From Gammaproteobacteria bacterium (GTDB lineage Bacteria; Pseudomonadota; Gammaproteobacteria; Pseudomonadales; Pseudohongiellaceae): a stretch of DNA of 38,958 nucleotides. Shown here piece by piece: positions 11,852-35,760 of this stretch; within the stretch, counting starts at the first letter, position 1; every line of letters starts with the position of its first letter. The DNA lies in assembly GCA_030645995.1 (NCBI GenBank), contig JAUSMU010000125.1, positions 1 through 38,958 on the forward strand, written 5' to 3'. The translations under genes were made by a program, and so were the position numbers. Below the pieces are notes generated by a model that saw only the letters and a program-made list of their open reading frames with translations, searched no databases and was not told the DNA's origin.

Positions 11852-11954
11852 GTCGGGTTCCTGGATTTATCGAGTGTATATGCCGATGGGCATTGTATCC
11901 AAAGCCGTCTGGGCTGGCAGCAACAAACTTGTGTGCCTCTGTGCCTTGTGCCTT

Positions 11955-12054
11955 GTGGGAGCGTACCCAGAGGGCATAAAGGCCTGCCCGCGATTGCTCT
12001 GGTGCGAGACCCCAATCGCGAGCAGGCCTTTATGCCCTTTGGGTACGCTCCCAC
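11955..12054. repeat. Long REP-like inverted pair
   Basis: Two 42-base arms (11955-11996 and 12013-12054) are reverse complements with only two mismatches, around a 16-base loop. Each arm begins GTGGGAGCGTACCC, contains GGGCATAAAGGCC, and ends in GCGATTG. The pair lies in the 235-base spacer between two minus-strand genes, where it could end or stabilise transcripts. The remainder of the spacer shows no clear feature. Confidence 0.9.
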
Positions 12055-12086
12055 ACTCTTCATATTTGCAGTGTTGCGACATCCTT

Positions 12087-16319: not shown

Positions 16320-17507
16320 TCAGTGGGCGGCGTCCACCGGCACCAGCAGCCGAAAGCTCAGCAATGAGATCGCGGCCGCCGCCAGCATCAGCACCAGCAT
16401 CGGGTAGACCGTTCCGTTGAAGATCAGCGCCACCGTCTGTGCCGCCACCGCCGAGAACCCCATCTGCATGAAGCCCGTGAGCCCCGAAGCACTGCCCGCC
16501 ATGTGTGGCGCCGCGTTGATGGCACCCGCCTGCGCGTTGGGCAGCGTGATGCCGTTGCCGAAGATCGCCAGCGCAATCGGCAGGAACAGCGCCGCCGGGT
16601 GATGCAATCCGAACAGTTGCAGGACAATGGCGAGGCTGATGCCAGCCAGCGAAATTTGCGAACCGTAATCGATCATGCGCTGAATGCCGAACTTGCGCCC
16701 GTAGTAGCGCGTCACGTAATTGCCGATCATGAAGCCCAGCGGAATCATGATGAAGTAGTAGCCGTACTCCGTGGCCGGTCGCTCGAACACGCTGACCATG
16801 ATCTCCGGCGCGGCGGAAATGAAACTGAAGAACACCACCGATACGAATGCCACGCTCAGCGAGTAACCCTGAAAGACCCGCACACGCATCAACGCGTTAT
16901 AGCAGCGCAGCATGTCGCCGACGCCAGTGAAGATCGTCGGCTCGCGCAGCGTCTCCGGTAATGCATAAAACAGCATGCCGAGCAGCAGCGCGCTGATGAT
17001 CGCCACGAGTATGAACACCGAATGCCAGTCCAGCCGCACCATCAGCTCGCCACCCACGGCGGGCGACAGCATGGGCATCACCACCATCACCATGACCAGC
17101 GTGGCGATCACCGAAGCAGCCTCGCGCGCGTCATAGACATCGCGCACGATCGCGCGTGCCACCACCATGCCTACAGCGCCACCGGCAGCCTGCACGATGC
17201 GGCCGGCAATCAGCAGTTCGATGCTGGGCGCCAGTACGCACAGGATGGAGCCGATGATGGTGATGATCATCCCGGCCATCAAGACCGGCTTGCGTCCGTA
17301 GCGGTCCGAGAGCGGGCCATAGGCGAGCGTAGCGACGGCAATCGCCGCCATCGATAGGCTGAGCGTCAGTTGCGCCACCGCCGCGCTGACCGCGAAACTC
17401 TCCTTGATAATGGGGATTGCGGGCAACAGGATCTGCATGGCGACGGGGCCGAGTGCCGAGACCATGGCCAGCAGCAGGATGAGTCCTTTGGAGAGGTGGG
17501 TGGTCAT
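16320..17507 (-). CDS. MFS multidrug exporter, Bcr/CflA-like
   Basis: A 395-residue major facilitator protein with about 12 membrane helices. The DHA1 (drug:H+ antiporter) signatures are visible: LAYGPLSDRYGRKPVL between helices 2 and 3, and GRIVQAAGGAVGMVVARAIVRDVYD, which is characteristic of the Bcr/CflA group. The motif-C-like LSPAVGGELM follows. Its ATG overlaps the stop of the upstream TPR gene (ATGA), so it is the last gene of the MoxR-type operon. Substrate is unknown. It is convergent with the Na/Pi cotransporter, with 30 bases between stops. Confidence 0.88.
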   Translation of the reverse strand: MTTHLSKGLILLLAMVSALGPVAMQILLPAIPIIKESFAVSAAVAQLTLSLSMAAIAVATLAYGPLSDRYGRKPVLMAGMIITIIGSILCVLAPSIELLIAGRIVQAAGGAVGMVVARAIVRDVYDAREAASVIATLVMVMVVMPMLSPAVGGELMVRLDWHSVFILVAIISALLLGMLFYALPETLREPTIFTGVGDMLRCYNALMRVRVFQGYSLSVAFVSVVFFSFISAAPEIMVSVFERPATEYGYYFIMIPLGFMIGNYVTRYYGRKFGIQRMIDYGSQISLAGISLAIVLQLFGLHHPAALFLPIALAIFGNGITLPNAQAGAINAAPHMAGSASGLTGFMQMGFSAVAAQTVALIFNGTVYPMLVLMLAAAAISLLSFRLLVPVDAAH

Positions 17508-19585
17508 TGCAGAACTGCATCCCGGTTGCGTTGCACAGTGGCGTTGTTCTGGGAACTGAGAATCACGCTGGACCCCATCAGCGCCATGCGCTGGGTCTGG
17601 CTGATTTCAATGCCGGGACCGAACGTGCGGTTATGGAACGTCTTCACCAGTTGCTGCGCCGGGGTGAGGGCTTCGGCCTCGCCATCGACGCCGATCTCCA
17701 GCGTGGTGACCTCACCCATCTGCAGGCATGACAAAGGCGAGCCGCCACGGGTGCTCAGGCACAGTGTCAGGTCGCTCTGCGGGAAGACTTCCAGCAGCAG
17801 GCCGTCGGGGTGATTGCGAAAGCGCGGCGAGCTTTCCAGATAACCGATGACCTCGCGCACGAACTCGTCGTCGACACCAGTGATATGCACCGGAAGCGCG
17901 AGGCCGAGTCGGCGAATGACGCTCGGATCCCATTCCAGTGCCTGCTCATAGCTGCTGAGGGCGATCTCCGTCTCGCCCAGACGCCACGCGGCATCGGCGA
18001 TGCGGGCAGCCAGGCGCGCCTTGAGCAGGACCTCCTGCGTTGGCAGCATGTTCATGGCACGGCCGGCGTGCTCGATGGTCAGCAGATCCTGCCCACGCAG
18101 TGCAGTGATCTCGGCGTGATAGGCGTGGTAGTAACCTTCGTTGAGGCTGAAGGCGCCCGCTGCCAGAGTCTGTTCCAGCACCGAGGACATCACGCCCTCG
18201 CCGATGATCGACACCAGTTCCGGCTCCACCCACTCGGGGATGTGCACGTCTAGCGGGGCATAAGGGCGCAGACGGTTCTGCAGCGTGGTGGTGTTGGCAA
18301 ACAGCGCCGCCGCGTGACGGGCTGAGCGCCAGGATTTGAAGCGCAGGCTCAGTGCCTCGGCGCGTGCGCTCAGAGATTCGGGGAATGGGAGGATGGCAAC
18401 CTCCTCCAGCTTCATCTCGTAGGCAGTCTGATTGGCCATGTGATTGATGAGCGCGGCGATGGAATCCTTCTGCGCCTCGTCGGCACTGTAGGAGCCGGTG
18501 CGGTCTGGCTGATTGAGTGCGGTGGCGCTGAGCGTCGCCGCGTCCTCGGGATAGCCAGTCAGAATCAGCAGCGCGGCACTCACCAGAAAATGTTCGGCGC
18601 GGTTCATCACCCCGACAATGGGCTCCTGGTTGTCGCGCCACACCAGCAGGTTGTCCAGCGCGGTGCGTGCCTCCTCGAAACGCCCTTGATTCATGTACAG
18701 ATAGAGCAGGTTGATCCACGGATCGCCGACGCTGTCCGGGTTCAGATAACGGGAAGCGCGGGTCAGGTAGTCTTCGGCTTCCTCCATGCGCAGCATACTC
18801 AGTGCGACTTCGGAGGCGTTGAGCAGGTAGACGGTATCGACCACACCGTTCTCGTCCTCGGCGACGGCCTCATCCTCGCTGATGGATTTGTCACAGGCTT
18901 CCAGTGACTCGGCCGGACGCAGGCTGGCCAGCTCCACCGCGCACAGTGTGTTCCAGGCGCGGCTGCGCTCGCGCACGTCGTTGCTGGTGTTGAGCACCAG
19001 ATTGGCGCTGGTACGAGCCTCGTCCCATTTCTGCATCTTGATCAGCGGCCAGCCGCGAAACGATTCCACCTCCTGTCCGTACACCGCCTCAATCTTGTCG
19101 AGATAGTCGAGGGAGGCTTGCTGATTGCCCATCAGTTGATGGACATAGGACAGCTGTGAGAGCGCGAGGTAGTGCCACTCGGCCCCGCCGTCGGCCATTG
19201 CCCGCCCGAGCGAGGTGTAGTTGGTCAACTCCTCGGCGCGCGCGAGATGAAAGAGTCCGCGTGCCAGGTTGCCCTCGACACGGATCAGCACCTCGGCGAG
19301 GGCGAATTGAGCGGCGGCCGAGTTGGGTTGCTCGGCAATCCAGCGCTGCGCCAGCTCGCGTGCGCGGACATTTTCCTTGAGGGTGAGGGCGTCGCAGATC
19401 TCCAGTGCGCGCTGCTCGGTGATGCCGAGCATGCCGAAGCACAACGTGGGCGTGCCGGGGATGTTGAAGCCGTCGAGGTCGTTCTGGGCGAAGGCAGGCA
19501 CTGCGACGCCGATCAGAAGGCCAGCAATCAATCCAATCTGCCTCCAAACGCCTCTGTGCCCCTGTGGGAGCGTACCCGAGGGCAT
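17504..19585 (-). CDS. Exported TPR-repeat protein in MoxR operon
   Basis: A protein of 693 residues from ATG 19585, with a Sec-type signal whose hydrophobic core is LIAGLLIGVAVPAFA, cut before QNDLDG. The rest is a helical repeat solenoid with TPR-like pairs (ALEICDALTLKENVRARELAQRW, AAQFALAEVLIRVEGNLARGL, AEDYLTRASRYL, EIALSSYEQALEWDPS). MoxR operons often encode periplasmic TPR proteins, seen as assembly partners; the function here is inferred only. Start choice is difficult. The frame is open upstream to a GTG at 19708 that overlaps the moxR stop, but that stretch is mostly REP sequence. ATG 19585 lies inside the REP arm, and TTG 19535 is another option with GGAGG upstream. Confidence 0.75.
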   Translation of the reverse strand: MPSGTLPQGHRGVWRQIGLIAGLLIGVAVPAFAQNDLDGFNIPGTPTLCFGMLGITEQRALEICDALTLKENVRARELAQRWIAEQPNSAAAQFALAEVLIRVEGNLARGLFHLARAEELTNYTSLGRAMADGGAEWHYLALSQLSYVHQLMGNQQASLDYLDKIEAVYGQEVESFRGWPLIKMQKWDEARTSANLVLNTSNDVRERSRAWNTLCAVELASLRPAESLEACDKSISEDEAVAEDENGVVDTVYLLNASEVALSMLRMEEAEDYLTRASRYLNPDSVGDPWINLLYLYMNQGRFEEARTALDNLLVWRDNQEPIVGVMNRAEHFLVSAALLILTGYPEDAATLSATALNQPDRTGSYSADEAQKDSIAALINHMANQTAYEMKLEEVAILPFPESLSARAEALSLRFKSWRSARHAAALFANTTTLQNRLRPYAPLDVHIPEWVEPELVSIIGEGVMSSVLEQTLAAGAFSLNEGYYHAYHAEITALRGQDLLTIEHAGRAMNMLPTQEVLLKARLAARIADAAWRLGETEIALSSYEQALEWDPSVIRRLGLALPVHITGVDDEFVREVIGYLESSPRFRNHPDGLLLEVFPQSDLTLCLSTRGGSPLSCLQMGEVTTLEIGVDGEAEALTPAQQLVKTFHNRTFGPGIEISQTQRMALMGSSVILSSQNNATVQRNRDAVLQ

Positions 19586-19672
19586 AAAGGCCCGCCCGCG
19601 ATCAGCCGTGGCACGCTGTCGCCCTAAACGCAGGCGCGGCAATATCCCATCGCGGGCAGGGCCCGCTCCCAC
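19564..19672. repeat. REP-like pair, long arm plus short Pseudomonas-like arm
   Basis: A long arm (19564-19602), starting GTGGGAGCGTACCCGAGG and ending GCCCGCGAT, faces a short inverted arm (19649-19672) that reads GTGGGAGCGGGCCCTGCC then CGCGAT on the other strand. The short arm resembles the classical Pseudomonas REP core. The pair lies between moxR and the TPR gene and contains the TPR gene's probable ATG. Confidence 0.88.
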
Positions 19673-19704
19673 AGGAGGTGAGTTATACGCAGAGCGTGGC
19701 CTTG

Positions 19705-20850
19705 TCACTGCAGCGTCGTCCGCGCGAGTTGTTCCATGGGTTCACGCATGCAGTCGTGCAGCACCTTGCCGAGATCGGCGACGCCGGGGGCCAGCTCGAC
19801 GCGGTGGCCGAGCACGCGGGGTAGCAGTGTCTCGATGTCCTCGGCGCTCACGAAGCTGCGGCCGCGCAGGGCGGCCAGCACCTGCAGGGCGGGCATCAGC
19901 AACACCATGCTGCGGGTGGAGTTGCCCTGCAGCACGCGCTCGTCGCTGCGCAAGTTGCGGGAGATATCCACCAGCGCGGTCTTGATGGCGCGGGCGATTA
20001 CCACATCCTGATCGATCACCTCGCGAGCCATCAGCACCTCGCTGCGGGTCACCTGGTGGAGTGACCCGTGAGCCCGCTGCTGACTCTGATCGCGGCGCGT
20101 CTTGTAGGTGTCCAGCACATCCAGCTCGGCGTCGCGTTCGATGTGCTTCATCGTGATCTTGAACAGGAAACGGTCCAGCTGCGGCGTGGGCAGCGGATAG
20201 GTGCCCACCAGGTCGAGCGGGTTCTGGGTCGCAATCACGAAGAACAATTTGTCCAAACGGTAGGTGGTGTTGTCGACCGTTACCTGCTTCTCGCCCATGG
20301 CCTCCAGCATCGCCGACTGCACCTTCGGCGAGGTGCGGTTGATCTCGTCCGCCAGCACGACATGCGCGAACAACGGACCGTGGCGGAAATGGAAGCTGTT
20401 GGTGCTGGTGTCGAACACCGAGCCGCCGGTCACGTCCGAGGGCAGCAGGTCTGGCGTGAACTGGATGCGGCGGAAGGGCACGATGGCGGCAGCGACGTCG
20501 TCGGCCTGCTCTTGCAGTGGCGTGATGATCGCCTCGCCCAGCGCCTTGGCGAGTGTGGTCTTGCCGGAGCCGGGGAAGTCTTCCAACAGCACGTGGCCGT
20601 CGGCGATCAGCGCGATGATCGCCAGCTCGATGACATCGTCACGTCCCAGCACCTGGCTGCGCACGGCGCCGCTCAGACGGTTGAGGACCGCGACGGCCTG
20701 TTGCAGGCGCGCGGATTGCGCGGCGACGCCTGCGGGGGCAGAGGTCGTCAGCGCTTCGCTTCTGTCGGCCGTTTCTGTCACTTCTACGTTCTCGTTTGCG
20801 CTCTCGATTGTGCTCTCAATTGCGTTCGCGCTTGTGGCTTCCAGGGTCAT
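19705..20850 (-). CDS. MoxR-family AAA+ ATPase
   Basis: A cytoplasmic AAA+ chaperone-like ATPase of 381 residues. It has Walker A LLEDFPGSGKTTLAKAL, the FTPDLLPSDVTGG segment, Walker B HVVLADEINRTSPKVQSAMLEAM, sensor 1 FVIATQNPLDLVGTYPLPTPQLDRF, and the C-terminal lid with RSMVLLMPALQVLAALRGR and sensor-2-type features. MoxR ATPases act with DUF58 and transglutaminase-like partners in maturing or activating other proteins. The first 45 residues are a Ser/Glu/Ala-rich tail without a family match. GGAGA lies upstream of the ATG. The stop overlaps a GTG in the TPR gene's frame (GTGA). Confidence 0.95.
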   Translation of the reverse strand: MTLEATSANAIESTIESANENVEVTETADRSEALTTSAPAGVAAQSARLQQAVAVLNRLSGAVRSQVLGRDDVIELAIIALIADGHVLLEDFPGSGKTTLAKALGEAIITPLQEQADDVAAAIVPFRRIQFTPDLLPSDVTGGSVFDTSTNSFHFRHGPLFAHVVLADEINRTSPKVQSAMLEAMGEKQVTVDNTTYRLDKLFFVIATQNPLDLVGTYPLPTPQLDRFLFKITMKHIERDAELDVLDTYKTRRDQSQQRAHGSLHQVTRSEVLMAREVIDQDVVIARAIKTALVDISRNLRSDERVLQGNSTRSMVLLMPALQVLAALRGRSFVSAEDIETLLPRVLGHRVELAPGVADLGKVLHDCMREPMEQLARTTLQ

Positions 20851-20925: not shown

Positions 20926-23175
20926 TCAATGCGTCCTCAACCATGCAAAGGGATCGAGGACGGCGAGCACGCGCTTCCACCAGGGAATGTGGCTGCCGAT
21001 TTCTTCGCGGATGCGGTTTTGCAGGGCTAGCCAGTCGGGGGTGGCCGTCGTTGCAGCGTGATCCTGAGCTTGATCGGGAGCGTGTGCCAAGGGCAATCGC
21101 GGCTGGGCCTTTATGCCCTCGGGTACGCTCCCACAGGGGCCCAGGGCGGCGTAGAGGTGGGAGGCGGTCATCGTGGCGAAGGATGGGGTCATCGTGCTGA
21201 GGCGGCGGGCGAAAGCCTCGCGGCTCTCGCCGTAGCGGCGGCGCTGGCCCAGTGCGGAGAGCATGTCCAGGGTGGCGCGGTAGCTCAGGCGGTAGCGCAG
21301 CGCCGGATCGGCAAATTGTGGGGCGCGCAGGCGGTAGACTTTCACGACGTAACCACCCAGCAACGCGAGCAACAGCGCGGCGACCAGCGTCTGCACCAGC
21401 ACGGTCAGCGGGAATGGCTCGTCCTGCTGGGAGCTGATGAACTCGTCGAACGCAGCCTCGTCGCGCAGCATGTCGCCGAGCAGCTGCTGCAGGCTGTTCT
21501 GCGGGTCCACGGACATGTCCACCAAGGTGCGCCCCGGGGCCGGATCGACGATCACCCAGCCCACGCCGTCCAGAAAAATCTCCGGCCAGGCATGACCATT
21601 GATGGCCTGAATCAGCAGCGAAGAGCCTCCGGCGCGATTGCTGGCCGGCACCGAGTAGCCGATGCCCACGCGGGCCGGGATGCCGATACTGCGGTACATG
21701 TAGGTGGCGGCGAAGGAGAAGTGCATACAGTAGCCGGTCAGGTCACCGAACAGGAACGAGGCTGCCGGGTCCTCGGCATAGGCGTGTTCATTCTTGTGGC
21801 TGTAGCTGCCGTTGCGGTCGAGGTAGTCCTTGATCGCCAGCGCCTTGGCATAGGGATCGTCGGCATAGCCGGGGCGCAGGTCCTGCAATATGGTCTCGGC
21901 CAGTTCGCGGTAGCGCGGGTCGTCGGGCAGCTCCAGATAAGCCTGACGCTGCGCGGGCGTCCAGTCGGGATCACCGGCGGTACGGCCTATCAGATCGGGA
22001 AATTCGAGCAGCGGCACCATCGAGTAGGCGTCGTAGGTCTGTTTGAAGCGCAGGTTGTTGGGGTTGGGCGTGTTCTCGAAGGCCACCGGCGTGTCCAGCC
22101 CGAACGGCGTGCGGTGCGGGGCGAGCAGGCCGATGGTGGTGCGCACAGCCTGACGCTTGTCCGGCAATGGCAGCGGCTCTTCGATGTCGGCGCGTACGGG
22201 CGGGAAGTGCGTGATCAGATCTTCATCGAGATCATCCCGGTCCGTCACCGCCAGTATGGTGCCATTGAATTCGGTGTAGGCGGATTCGCGGAAATAATAC
22301 GAGCCACCGGCTGGCTCGTAGTCATCGCGGAACAGCACGATGGCCACAGGGGCCTCCTTGTCGCTGGCGTCATTCTCGCCATCGCGGAAGGGGTTGTCCT
22401 GCTCGGCCGCACTGCCTTCGGCGCGCGCGGCACCGGTCAAGCCCAGGTCGTCGGTCAGGCGTGGGGAGGGCAAGCCGAACAGTTGCACGTAGGCCAGCAG
22501 GCTGAAACACAGCAGCCCCAGCACGGTGAAGTGATAGGGCAGGCGGCGGTGATTGTTCTCCATCATCAGCAACCCGGCAAGAGCCAGCACCGCTCCGCAG
22601 CCCAGCGCCATGAGGATGGAGCTGGGGTCGATGCCACGGGTGAGGGCGTAATCGCCGATGAAGAAGGGGCGGTGAATCATGCCCTGCCGATGTGCGGCCA
22701 GGGTGATGACGAAGGCGGCGGCGACAAACAGGATCTCCGTCACCCGGCCATAGCTGGTGCGATGCGCGAGGGTGCGCAGCAGGGCGGTCAGCGCGGCGGC
22801 GAACAGGAACCACTGCAGGACCTCGCCGATCTCATAGGTCAGCAGCGGGGGAATCAGGCTGGCGATGGTCAGGCTGCCGGTGATGACGCTACTCAGGAAC
22901 ACGCCGACGCACAGCAGCACCAGGGTGAAGACGGCGATCACGCTCAGGCGCAGGTCCCGCAGGGGCGGGCGGTTAATAAGCCCGTCGATCAGGTAGCAGG
23001 AGAACAGGCAGCCGACGAAGGCCGCCACCGAACCGCTCTCGCTGGTCAGCGACAGGCTCAGCACCCAGTAGCTGGAGGCAATGATCGCCGCCCGCAGGCT
23101 GGAGGGCAGCAGCTGGCTGAGGATGGAGTCCTGTGATGTCGTCTGTGTTCTGTTGTGCATGTGCGTGTCTCTCAC
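20926..23175 (-). CDS. TgpA-like membrane transglutaminase with DUF4129-like C-terminus
   Basis: A 749-residue inner-membrane protein: about six hydrophobic segments in residues 20-240, a periplasmic transglutaminase-like domain, one more membrane segment (near 600, FPLTVLVQTLVAALLLALLGGYVV), and a cytoplasmic DUF4129-like tail. The catalytic triad is present: Cys in LTGYCMHFSFAATYMYRSIG, His in NGHAWPEIFL and Asp in GWVIVDPAPGR. TgpA of Pseudomonas is essential and lies in a comparable DUF58/MoxR setting. The start is a GTG overlapping the DUF58 stop; ATG 23160 is possible. An in-frame REP element (21094-21134) adds about 14 residues (LGPCGSVPEGIKAQPR region) within the C-terminal tail. Confidence 0.9.
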   Translation of the reverse strand: MRDTHMHNRTQTTSQDSILSQLLPSSLRAAIIASSYWVLSLSLTSESGSVAAFVGCLFSCYLIDGLINRPPLRDLRLSVIAVFTLVLLCVGVFLSSVITGSLTIASLIPPLLTYEIGEVLQWFLFAAALTALLRTLAHRTSYGRVTEILFVAAAFVITLAAHRQGMIHRPFFIGDYALTRGIDPSSILMALGCGAVLALAGLLMMENNHRRLPYHFTVLGLLCFSLLAYVQLFGLPSPRLTDDLGLTGAARAEGSAAEQDNPFRDGENDASDKEAPVAIVLFRDDYEPAGGSYYFRESAYTEFNGTILAVTDRDDLDEDLITHFPPVRADIEEPLPLPDKRQAVRTTIGLLAPHRTPFGLDTPVAFENTPNPNNLRFKQTYDAYSMVPLLEFPDLIGRTAGDPDWTPAQRQAYLELPDDPRYRELAETILQDLRPGYADDPYAKALAIKDYLDRNGSYSHKNEHAYAEDPAASFLFGDLTGYCMHFSFAATYMYRSIGIPARVGIGYSVPASNRAGGSSLLIQAINGHAWPEIFLDGVGWVIVDPAPGRTLVDMSVDPQNSLQQLLGDMLRDEAAFDEFISSQQDEPFPLTVLVQTLVAALLLALLGGYVVKVYRLRAPQFADPALRYRLSYRATLDMLSALGQRRRYGESREAFARRLSTMTPSFATMTASHLYAALGPCGSVPEGIKAQPRLPLAHAPDQAQDHAATTATPDWLALQNRIREEIGSHIPWWKRVLAVLDPFAWLRTH
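21094..21134 (-). repeat. Single long REP-like element inside the tgpA-like gene
   Basis: On the minus strand it begins GTGGGAGCGTACCCGAGG, contains GGGCATAAAGGCCC and ends CCGCGATTG, agreeing with the other long copies. It is in frame inside the transglutaminase gene's 3' part and introduces no stop codon. Confidence 0.9.
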
Positions 23176-24584
23176 ACCCGGTTCATGCGTTTGTCATAGG
23201 TCAGCCCGGTACGCCGATCTACAACCATGGTCGATTCTACAAGTTGACCGAGTTCCGTCAACAAACGGCTCAGCTCGACGACAGAAGTCGCCTGTCCCTC
23301 GCGTTCGCGCAGTTCACGGTTTGCGGCACTGTCGTTGAACAGCAGCTTCTGCCAGCGTGGGCGCGGCTTGCTGGTAATGAAACCATCCGTCGCCAGCACC
23401 ACCGAGAAGCGCACCCGGAAGCGCCCGATGGTCGCGCGCAGCTGTTGCAGCCAGGGCCCGGTTTCGGCATTCGCAAAGACGATACAGTGCACACTGCCCT
23501 GATTGCCGAAGTGCTGCAGGTACTGGTCGAGTCCGTAGGCGTGCAAGCCGTCCAAAGCGCGCGATTGCGCGATCAGCTCCAGCGCCTCGCCCGTCTGATT
23601 AGTCGGTGTGTCGCCGCCGTCGGCGCAGAACAGCCAATCCTCCCCCAGCGCACCGGTCTCCACCGCGACGCGGGCGACGGCTGCCGCCGCCTCGTCGTGG
23701 GGGCCGGACAGCAGGTAGGCGAGCGTGCGGTTGCTGTGAAACACGCTGCGCTCCGCCAACCGCACGGTCAGGTGCCGGTTGCGCGCATAGACCTTCCACA
23801 TGATGTTGCGCACGGAATCGCCCGGCACATAGGGTCGAATCTCCATACGGTCGCCCTCGGGATGGCCACCGGGGTCGGGAATCCCATCTTCGGACGTGAG
23901 TGAGCGCAACAGAGGTAATGACTTGATGCTGCCGGCCTGCGGCAGCGCCAGCAACTCCCCTTCCTGTGTGAAGCGCCAGGAGAAGCGGCTGAAGCCCAGC
24001 ACGTCGCGCACCGTGAAGCGGCGGGTGATGGTGGGGCTCTTGCAGCGCCGCAGCGGGACGATTTCTTCCTCCCACTGCTGCTCGTCTTCGGACAGACGGT
24101 TGTGAGTCCGGATCGCGTCCGGGCGCACAATTTCCCAGCGCACGCTGATCAACGGCAACCATGGCATGGTGGGCATGGTGAAGCCGGTTTCGTTCGGGTA
24201 ACCCGCCTCCACCTTCATGCGGGCGATGTGGCGTTTCAGAATCACCTGGCGCTCTAGCTGATCGACGATCTGATAGCGCAGCAACAGGCCCCCGAGCAGC
24301 ACGATCACCGTGGAGAACAGGACGATGGCGAGCGCGCAGACGGCGAGCGCGAACACCACCAGATCCATGCGGCCGTAGCCGAAGGTCCGCAGCGCGAACA
24401 TGGCGATGACCAGCACAGCGACGCCCTGCACGGTGAGCGGGAAGCGGTCGCGCAGCAGGCCAAGCAGCTGGCTGACGAGCGCTCGCCACGACTGTGCGCG
24501 AGTCGCACCCTTGTCAGTCGATGTCTGCTGCTGGCGAGGGGAGAGCGCCTCGCCGGAACCACTGTGGTTGGTTCGTAACTGCAT
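23172..24584 (-). CDS. DUF58 domain protein, MoxR/TgpA partner
   Basis: A 470-residue protein with two adjoining membrane segments near the N-terminus (about residues 50-100: LTVQGVAVLVIAMFALRTFGY and LVVFALAVCALAIVLFSTVIVLLG) and a large soluble part. The DUF58 signature is PEGDRMEIRPYVPGDSVRNIMWKVYAR followed by RHLTVRLAERS, after which a VWA-like region follows. Such proteins occur next to MoxR and TgpA genes across bacteria; their exact role is not settled. AAGGG precedes the ATG. It is the first gene of the five-gene minus-strand operon, and its stop overlaps the next gene's GTG. Confidence 0.9.
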   Translation of the reverse strand: MQLRTNHSGSGEALSPRQQQTSTDKGATRAQSWRALVSQLLGLLRDRFPLTVQGVAVLVIAMFALRTFGYGRMDLVVFALAVCALAIVLFSTVIVLLGGLLLRYQIVDQLERQVILKRHIARMKVEAGYPNETGFTMPTMPWLPLISVRWEIVRPDAIRTHNRLSEDEQQWEEEIVPLRRCKSPTITRRFTVRDVLGFSRFSWRFTQEGELLALPQAGSIKSLPLLRSLTSEDGIPDPGGHPEGDRMEIRPYVPGDSVRNIMWKVYARNRHLTVRLAERSVFHSNRTLAYLLSGPHDEAAAAVARVAVETGALGEDWLFCADGGDTPTNQTGEALELIAQSRALDGLHAYGLDQYLQHFGNQGSVHCIVFANAETGPWLQQLRATIGRFRVRFSVVLATDGFITSKPRPRWQKLLFNDSAANRELREREGQATSVVELSRLLTELGQLVESTMVVDRRTGLTYDKRMNRV

Positions 24585-35708: not shown

Positions 35709-35718
35709 AACTGATTTT

Positions 35719-35760
35719 GTGGGAGCGTACCCGAGGGCATAAAGGCCCGCCCGCTCCCAC
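35719..35760. repeat. REP-like element with terminal 9-bp stem
   Basis: It begins GTGGGAGCGTACCCGAGG and ends CGCTCCCAC, so the ends pair over nine bases, a single hairpin-like unit. It lies between the convergent channel gene and dienelactone hydrolase gene, where it could act as a bidirectional transcription end. Confidence 0.85.

Follow-up and report, generated by a model that had tools for sequence, protein, structure and literature searches.

An in-frame REP insertion in a transglutaminase-domain gene of an uncultured Pseudohongiella-like lineage

Intragenic REPs of the GTAG and CGTC families have previously been described in several species, where single elements or inverted dimers lie within open reading frames and often add 20–30 residues to the encoded proteins (Di Nocera et al. 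2013, PMC3733652). A location in flexible linkers was proposed for such copies, and recB of two Xanthomonas species was found to carry different REPs at about one site (PMC3733652). Here, we describe a REP copy that is read in frame in the gene of a Transglut_core membrane protein. The gene is located in a stretch of 38,958 nt (hereafter, the window) belonging to a draft metagenome-assembled genome in 502 contigs (G000). All genomes compared are draft MAGs, and the named relatives belong to the Gammaproteobacteria/Pseudomonadales close to Pseudohongiella, with some isolate labels carrying the names of lakes. Very probably, a REP or REPIN was inserted in the ancestor of four species and is translated as a flexible linker, which is tolerated rather than functional.

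The host gene and its REP

The coordinates of the features are collected in Table 1. In the host protein of 749 aa, Transglut_core (residues 438–545) was the sole Pfam match even at E <= 5, with TgpA_N and DUF4129 absent, and a search of NCBIfam gave no match. The nearest solved relative found was the protein-glutamine gamma-glutamyltransferase 6g49 (E = 7e-14, host residues 402–546). Like TgpA of Pseudomonas aeruginosa (PMC3507681), the protein is a membrane protein with Transglut_core, and its gene, too, belongs to a cluster, here with those for MoxR and DUF58 proteins, in the order DUF58 - transglutaminase - MoxR - TPR (Pfam); unlike TgpA, it has no match to TgpA_N or DUF4129. A protein combining TgpA_N, Transglut_core and DUF4129 is encoded in G000 at a locus other than the window cluster (contig C75, L274:1794-3962), with an AAA ATPase-like ORF upstream of this full-domain TgpA candidate. 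The host protein is a paralogue-like relative of TgpA. P. aeruginosa TgpA (PA2873, transcription unit PA2875-2874-2873) was reported to be essential (PMC3507681); as only Transglut_core is found here and the full domain set is encoded on C75, this essentiality cannot be carried over to the window gene. The gene had been called TgpA-like and ‘essential-type’, with a ‘DUF4129-like tail’, in the first-pass annotation; Pfam supports neither a TgpA-like identity in the strict sense nor such a tail.

Two side observations concern homologues of this cluster. The transglutaminase-gene homologue L156:4001-6154 (WLWQ01000002.1) has one in-frame stop codon within the matched stretch, and CAMCRC010000094.1 (L102), titled Klebsiella pneumoniae, encodes a Pseudohongiella-like cluster, so that this MAG is probably mislabelled.

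Table 1. Positions of the genes and REP features in the window
Feature	Position	Strand	Basis or remarks
TPR gene	17504-19708	minus	ORF, Pfam; putative GTG start overlapping moxR stop
MoxR-type AAA ATPase gene	19705-20850	minus	ORF, Pfam
Host gene, Transglut_core membrane protein, 749 aa	20926-23175	minus	ORF, Pfam, same-family homologues with long alignments
DUF58 gene	23172-24584	minus	ORF, Pfam
Long-tip REP copy, 42 nt, in frame	21094-21135	minus	Encodes residues 681-694 CGSVPEGIKAQPRL
18-nt tail CCCTTGGCACACGCTCCC after REP	21076-21093	minus	Sequence; comparison with L013/L014
Inverted long-tip REP pair (REPIN)	11954-12055		Two 43-nt arms, 95% complementary, 16 nt apart
REPIN between moxR and TPR gene	19549-19672		Long-tip arm 19563-19602, short-tip arm 19650-19672
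Truncated long-tip REP joined to CGCTCCCACA end	35718-35754	plus	

The intragenic REP, TGTGGGAGCGTACCCGAGGGCATAAAGGCCCAGCCGCGATTG, is two positions off the family consensus TGTGGGAGCGTACCCGAGGGCATAAAGGCCCGCCCGCGATTG, with a core that is 95% identical. The first-pass annotation had placed a REP within this gene and claimed that the frame was kept; its position agrees with ours to within one base, and the host ORF is open across the whole element. An Rfam scan of the window gave no match. The tail that follows the REP ends in CGCTCCC, which resembles the distal end of the second arm of a REPIN, and may be the remnant of a truncated arm. Taken together, REP and tail comprise 60 nt, or 20 codons, which is equal to the length excess over the closest insertion-free linkers, those of the G005/G011 type.

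The 111-nt region around the REP matched 41 places in its own genome (E <= 8.5e-6). Five of them are in the window, where long-tip copies lie at 19549-19614, 11951-12000, 12013-12055 and 35718-35754, in addition to the intragenic one. The GTGG...GCGA ends are conserved across this high-copy short repeat, as in REP or REPIN. Both types of the element end in GTGGGAGCG and CGCGA; the long type has TACCC(N)NAGGGCATAAA ahead of GGCC, and in the short type the tip is a compact hairpin (GGCCTGCC or AGCCCTGCT, among others). Some 40 long-tip and 150 short-tip REPs (148 exact matches to the short type) were counted in G000, and the reversed pattern, used as a control, had zero matches in every genome. 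Inverted pairs of arms with a short spacer, often a long one combined with a short one as in the REPIN arrangement, are common (e.g. L051, L054 and L059). Genes of PF01797 were detected in 13 of the 14 draft genomes of the genus. None of the 12 PF01797 loci read was flanked by this REP within 1.5 kb (L041 of G011 has one loose REP-like match), and the sole PF01797 gene found in G000 had no flanking REP of these types over the same distance.

A clade-restricted insertion with later in-frame edits

An alignment of 23 homologues at their C-termini, a check proposed in the first-pass annotation, showed the REP segment to be a true insertion that adds residues around GSVPEGIKAQPR to the protein, as had been suggested there. 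The full segment occurs in G000 and G013, and the REP core without the tail in G009; at this position, G010 has a short-type REP. It is absent from all 10 other homologues of the same genus (G005, G011, G012, G007, G003, G001, G002, G008, G004 and G006), which are approximately 71–76% identical and possess a short linker, such as ALGEPQHNDATQQAQSVDW. These REP-less homologues are shorter, and the REP lies wholly inside the ORF with the frame kept, which are the features by which intragenic REPs were recognised earlier (Di Nocera 2013). Among the 14 genomes of the genus, the long-tip type is restricted to G000, G013, G010 and G009, and thus the insertion and the long REP type share one distribution. 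By synonymous distance, G000 and G013 group together, followed by G010 and then G009.

The first-pass annotation had named, as what would speak against an insertion, a similar sequence in relatives without REPs or a sequencing error; the segment is lacking in such relatives and present in independently assembled sister genomes. The genome is a draft MAG of many contigs, and repeats such as REPs can mislead assemblers; a REP might have been mis-joined into the gene or read in a wrong frame. However, the separate assemblies of G013 (JAURWS) and G009 (CAIOZF) contain this insertion in the same context of flanking sequence, that of G010 (CAIRBI) contains the other subtype, and unique flanks run on at both sides of the REP, which makes an artefact of assembly or sequencing extremely improbable.

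In the AlphaFold2 model, which is weak overall (mean pLDDT 64.7, from 51 sequences), residues 680–710 have pLDDT < 50 and lie between helices 664–678 and 715–727. Across all aligned relatives, the linker at the REP site varies in length and sequence, so that model and alignment agree on a predicted disordered, low-confidence linker. Codon differences between G000 and G013 numbered 6 nonsynonymous to 38 synonymous upstream of the insert, against 8 to 3 in the insert region (Fisher p = 0.0003); it should be noted that the latter ratio covers the insert region, the 14 codons of the REP core alone having too few changes for a test of selection. This relaxed pattern points to weak constraint on the segment beyond its frame. 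Furthermore, REPs seem suited to being tolerated in frame, since few of their frames bear stops: five of six were stop-free in the long-tip type and six of six in the short-tip type (two short types tested).

The residues encoded by the REP could also have been co-opted and now be functional, for instance as a binding or regulatory linker. The segment has indeed been retained in at least three species, and its REP-core residues are nearly identical in G000 and G013. Against this, codon evolution in the insert region is relaxed, the core has been swapped in G010 for the peptide of another REP (GSEPRSRL), the tail was deleted in G009, and the linker is disordered and of variable length. We therefore regard co-option as very unlikely, and a tolerated insertion as the likelier outcome, given a length-variable disordered linker with relaxed codon evolution.

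Another possible explanation is that the REP works at the RNA or DNA level, as a determinant of mRNA stability or as a gyrase or attenuator site, its coding capacity being incidental. Roles in mRNA are frequently considered for REPs that lie close to 3' ends (PMC3733652), and the present copy lies about 165 nt ahead of the transglutaminase stop codon and upstream of moxR in one cluster. However, when single-stranded DNA was folded, only the short type was clearly better than its shuffles (z = -2.6), whereas the long-tip type was no better (consensus z = 0.33, transglutaminase copy 0.37, G009 copy -0.11), and the element differs from species to species. A role of this kind is thus very unlikely.

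Under the preferred reading, that of a tolerated insertion, the ancestor shared by G000, G013, G010 and G009 would have acquired a long-tip REP/REPIN unit, approximately 60 nt long with what was left of its second arm, in the linker that joins the last helices, presumably mobilised by a RAYT-type transposase. With a net gain that is a multiple of three and a REP that is mostly free of stops, translation would yield some 20 extra residues of flexible linker. The site was length-variable already and, with codon changes relaxed, the insert would have been tolerated rather than put to use. The later frame-keeping edits comprise the tip replacement in G010, which may have been conversion-like, the deletion of the tail in G009 and a gain of 6 nt in G013.

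In-frame REPs in other genes

The first-pass annotation considered REPs to be normally extragenic and the present copy to be an exception. The former holds for most copies, as only about 10 of some 140 examined were in a convincingly coding frame; the latter does not, as at least seven other genes of G000 contain in-frame REPs, most of which sit in linkers. These counts derive from the retrieved loci of about 140 G000 copies, for which codon use was scored on both sides (the scoring being trained on four window genes only), followed by comparison with relatives or by Pfam.

In the TrpE-TrpG fusion (anthranilate synthase), a REP separates Anth_synt_I_N from Chorismate_bind in G000 and G013, and is missing from eight other aligned relatives. 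The G013 gene (L237:761-3379, G013:C35) has two separate in-frame insertions, the second being a REPIN in the GATase part. In a ThpR/LigT-type phosphoesterase, a single REP is present in G000 and a tandem pair in G013, and G010 has a remnant at most. In MetG, an in-frame REP lies in the interdomain linker that precedes the tRNA_bind domain, and its place is much the same in eight genomes (L216/L244, G000:C184; L245-L258). Up to three in-frame REPs occur in a WaaF-like heptosyltransferase; in this gene, the right REP arm is tandemly duplicated in frame (36 nt) in G000 (L259, G000:C60) but not in G013 (L260). Three further cases were assigned by Pfam layout and an open frame: a NuoM-like Proton_antipo_M protein, a SelD-type fusion with the REP between Pyr_redox_2 and AIRS, and ZipA with the REP before ZipA_C. 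Less convincing candidates are a TamB-like ORF and one resembling glycosyltransferases.

Next to the transglutaminase gene, G000, G013 and G009 have a TPR frame that remains open across the whole REPIN, ahead of the signal peptide. With its predicted start, the 5' leader of this gene may be coding through the REPIN. In several relatives, the TPR gene begins with ATG beside the moxR stop and has a short leader, and N-terminal REPs are often non-coding (PMC3733652). REP-like or repeated segments were also seen in the TPR leaders of L102, L106 and L159, and in the Pseudohongiella MAG L123 (JABMOK010000165.1) the leader consists of a short tandem repeat (LMHLVLMHLVLMKGVLM...) that offers numerous potential ATG starts.

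Apparent exchange of REP types and comparison with known systems

At the transglutaminase site, G010 reads GTGGGAGCG-AGCCCCGCT-CGCGATTG, where G000, G013 and G009 have a long tip of 24 nt; the flanks are otherwise nearly identical, and each tip has a length divisible by three. That the short tip arose by simple deletion was considered and rejected, as a loss of 15 nt would still need four substitutions. Together, these substitutions produce the exact canonical REP 23-mer, which also occurs elsewhere in G010 as well as in G000, G013, G005, G009 and G011. Other sites differ in a similar manner: between moxR and the TPR gene, the tip is long in G000 and short in G013 and G009, and in waaF it is long in G000 and G013 and short in G010. 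When these tips are compared with the order of the species, (G000, G013), G010 and G009, exchange between REP types appears to have run both ways. The change of tip would fit gene conversion, template switching or replacement guided by a transposase, and repeated insertion at one and the same base is less likely.

The tip types of the MetG REPs follow the host genome. Counted over the copies of each genome, GCT tips make up 47 of 74 in G002, 105 of 207 in G008 and 8 of 12 in G006, compared with about 3 of 151 in G000. Concerted evolution argued from metG alone was set aside as weak, for the tip family (GCT in G002, G008 and G006, GCC in the others) also tracks phylogeny. Whatever the case, it is quite possible, albeit tentative, that REPs of this genus are exchanged in place, also within coding linkers, the tip of an existing REP giving way to that of another type from its own genome in a conversion-like or transposase-guided manner, that frame-preserving swaps are kept, and that linkers are thereby repeatedly rewritten by the current REP family.

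In-frame REP insertion is already documented as a type of event, of which the window provides a well-supported case: a dated insertion in the gene of a conserved membrane protein, accompanied by others in the MetG, TrpEG and WaaF linkers of the same lineage. The switch of type in place, between close sister species and in a coding linker, goes somewhat beyond the literature we found. Such a switch at one coding site, together with the sister species, offers a clean natural system for the study of REP exchange, be it by gene conversion, template switching or the action of RAYTs on existing REPs.

The elements described here resemble those of Di Nocera and colleagues (PMC3733652) in being short palindromes inside ORFs, at linker-type sites and with differing REPs at one site. 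They differ from the GTAG and CGTC families in their GTGG tag (TGTGGGAGC) and in their host, an uncultured Pseudohongiella-like lineage; beyond the 2013 study, the gain could be dated on a within-genus alignment, and at a single coding site the tip was found to be swapped between closely related sister species. As with the palindromic elements of Rickettsia (RPEs, PMC10969869), which are the best-known analogue, mobile palindromes are found in frame in many unrelated genes, but the RPEs measure about 150 bp, and the REPs here are shorter and mostly outside genes, with a coding minority. Inverted REP doublets with a short spacer and several sequence groups per genome are shared with the REPINs of Pseudomonas fluorescens SBW25 (PMC3116915), for which extragenic space was analysed; in contrast to that study, no REP-flanked RAYT was found at the loci read here. 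Finally, the enterobacterial RU elements (Delihas 2007, PMC2759123) are likewise small mobile repeats read in frame in annotated genes, although at 103–168 bp they are longer than the REPs of the present lineage.
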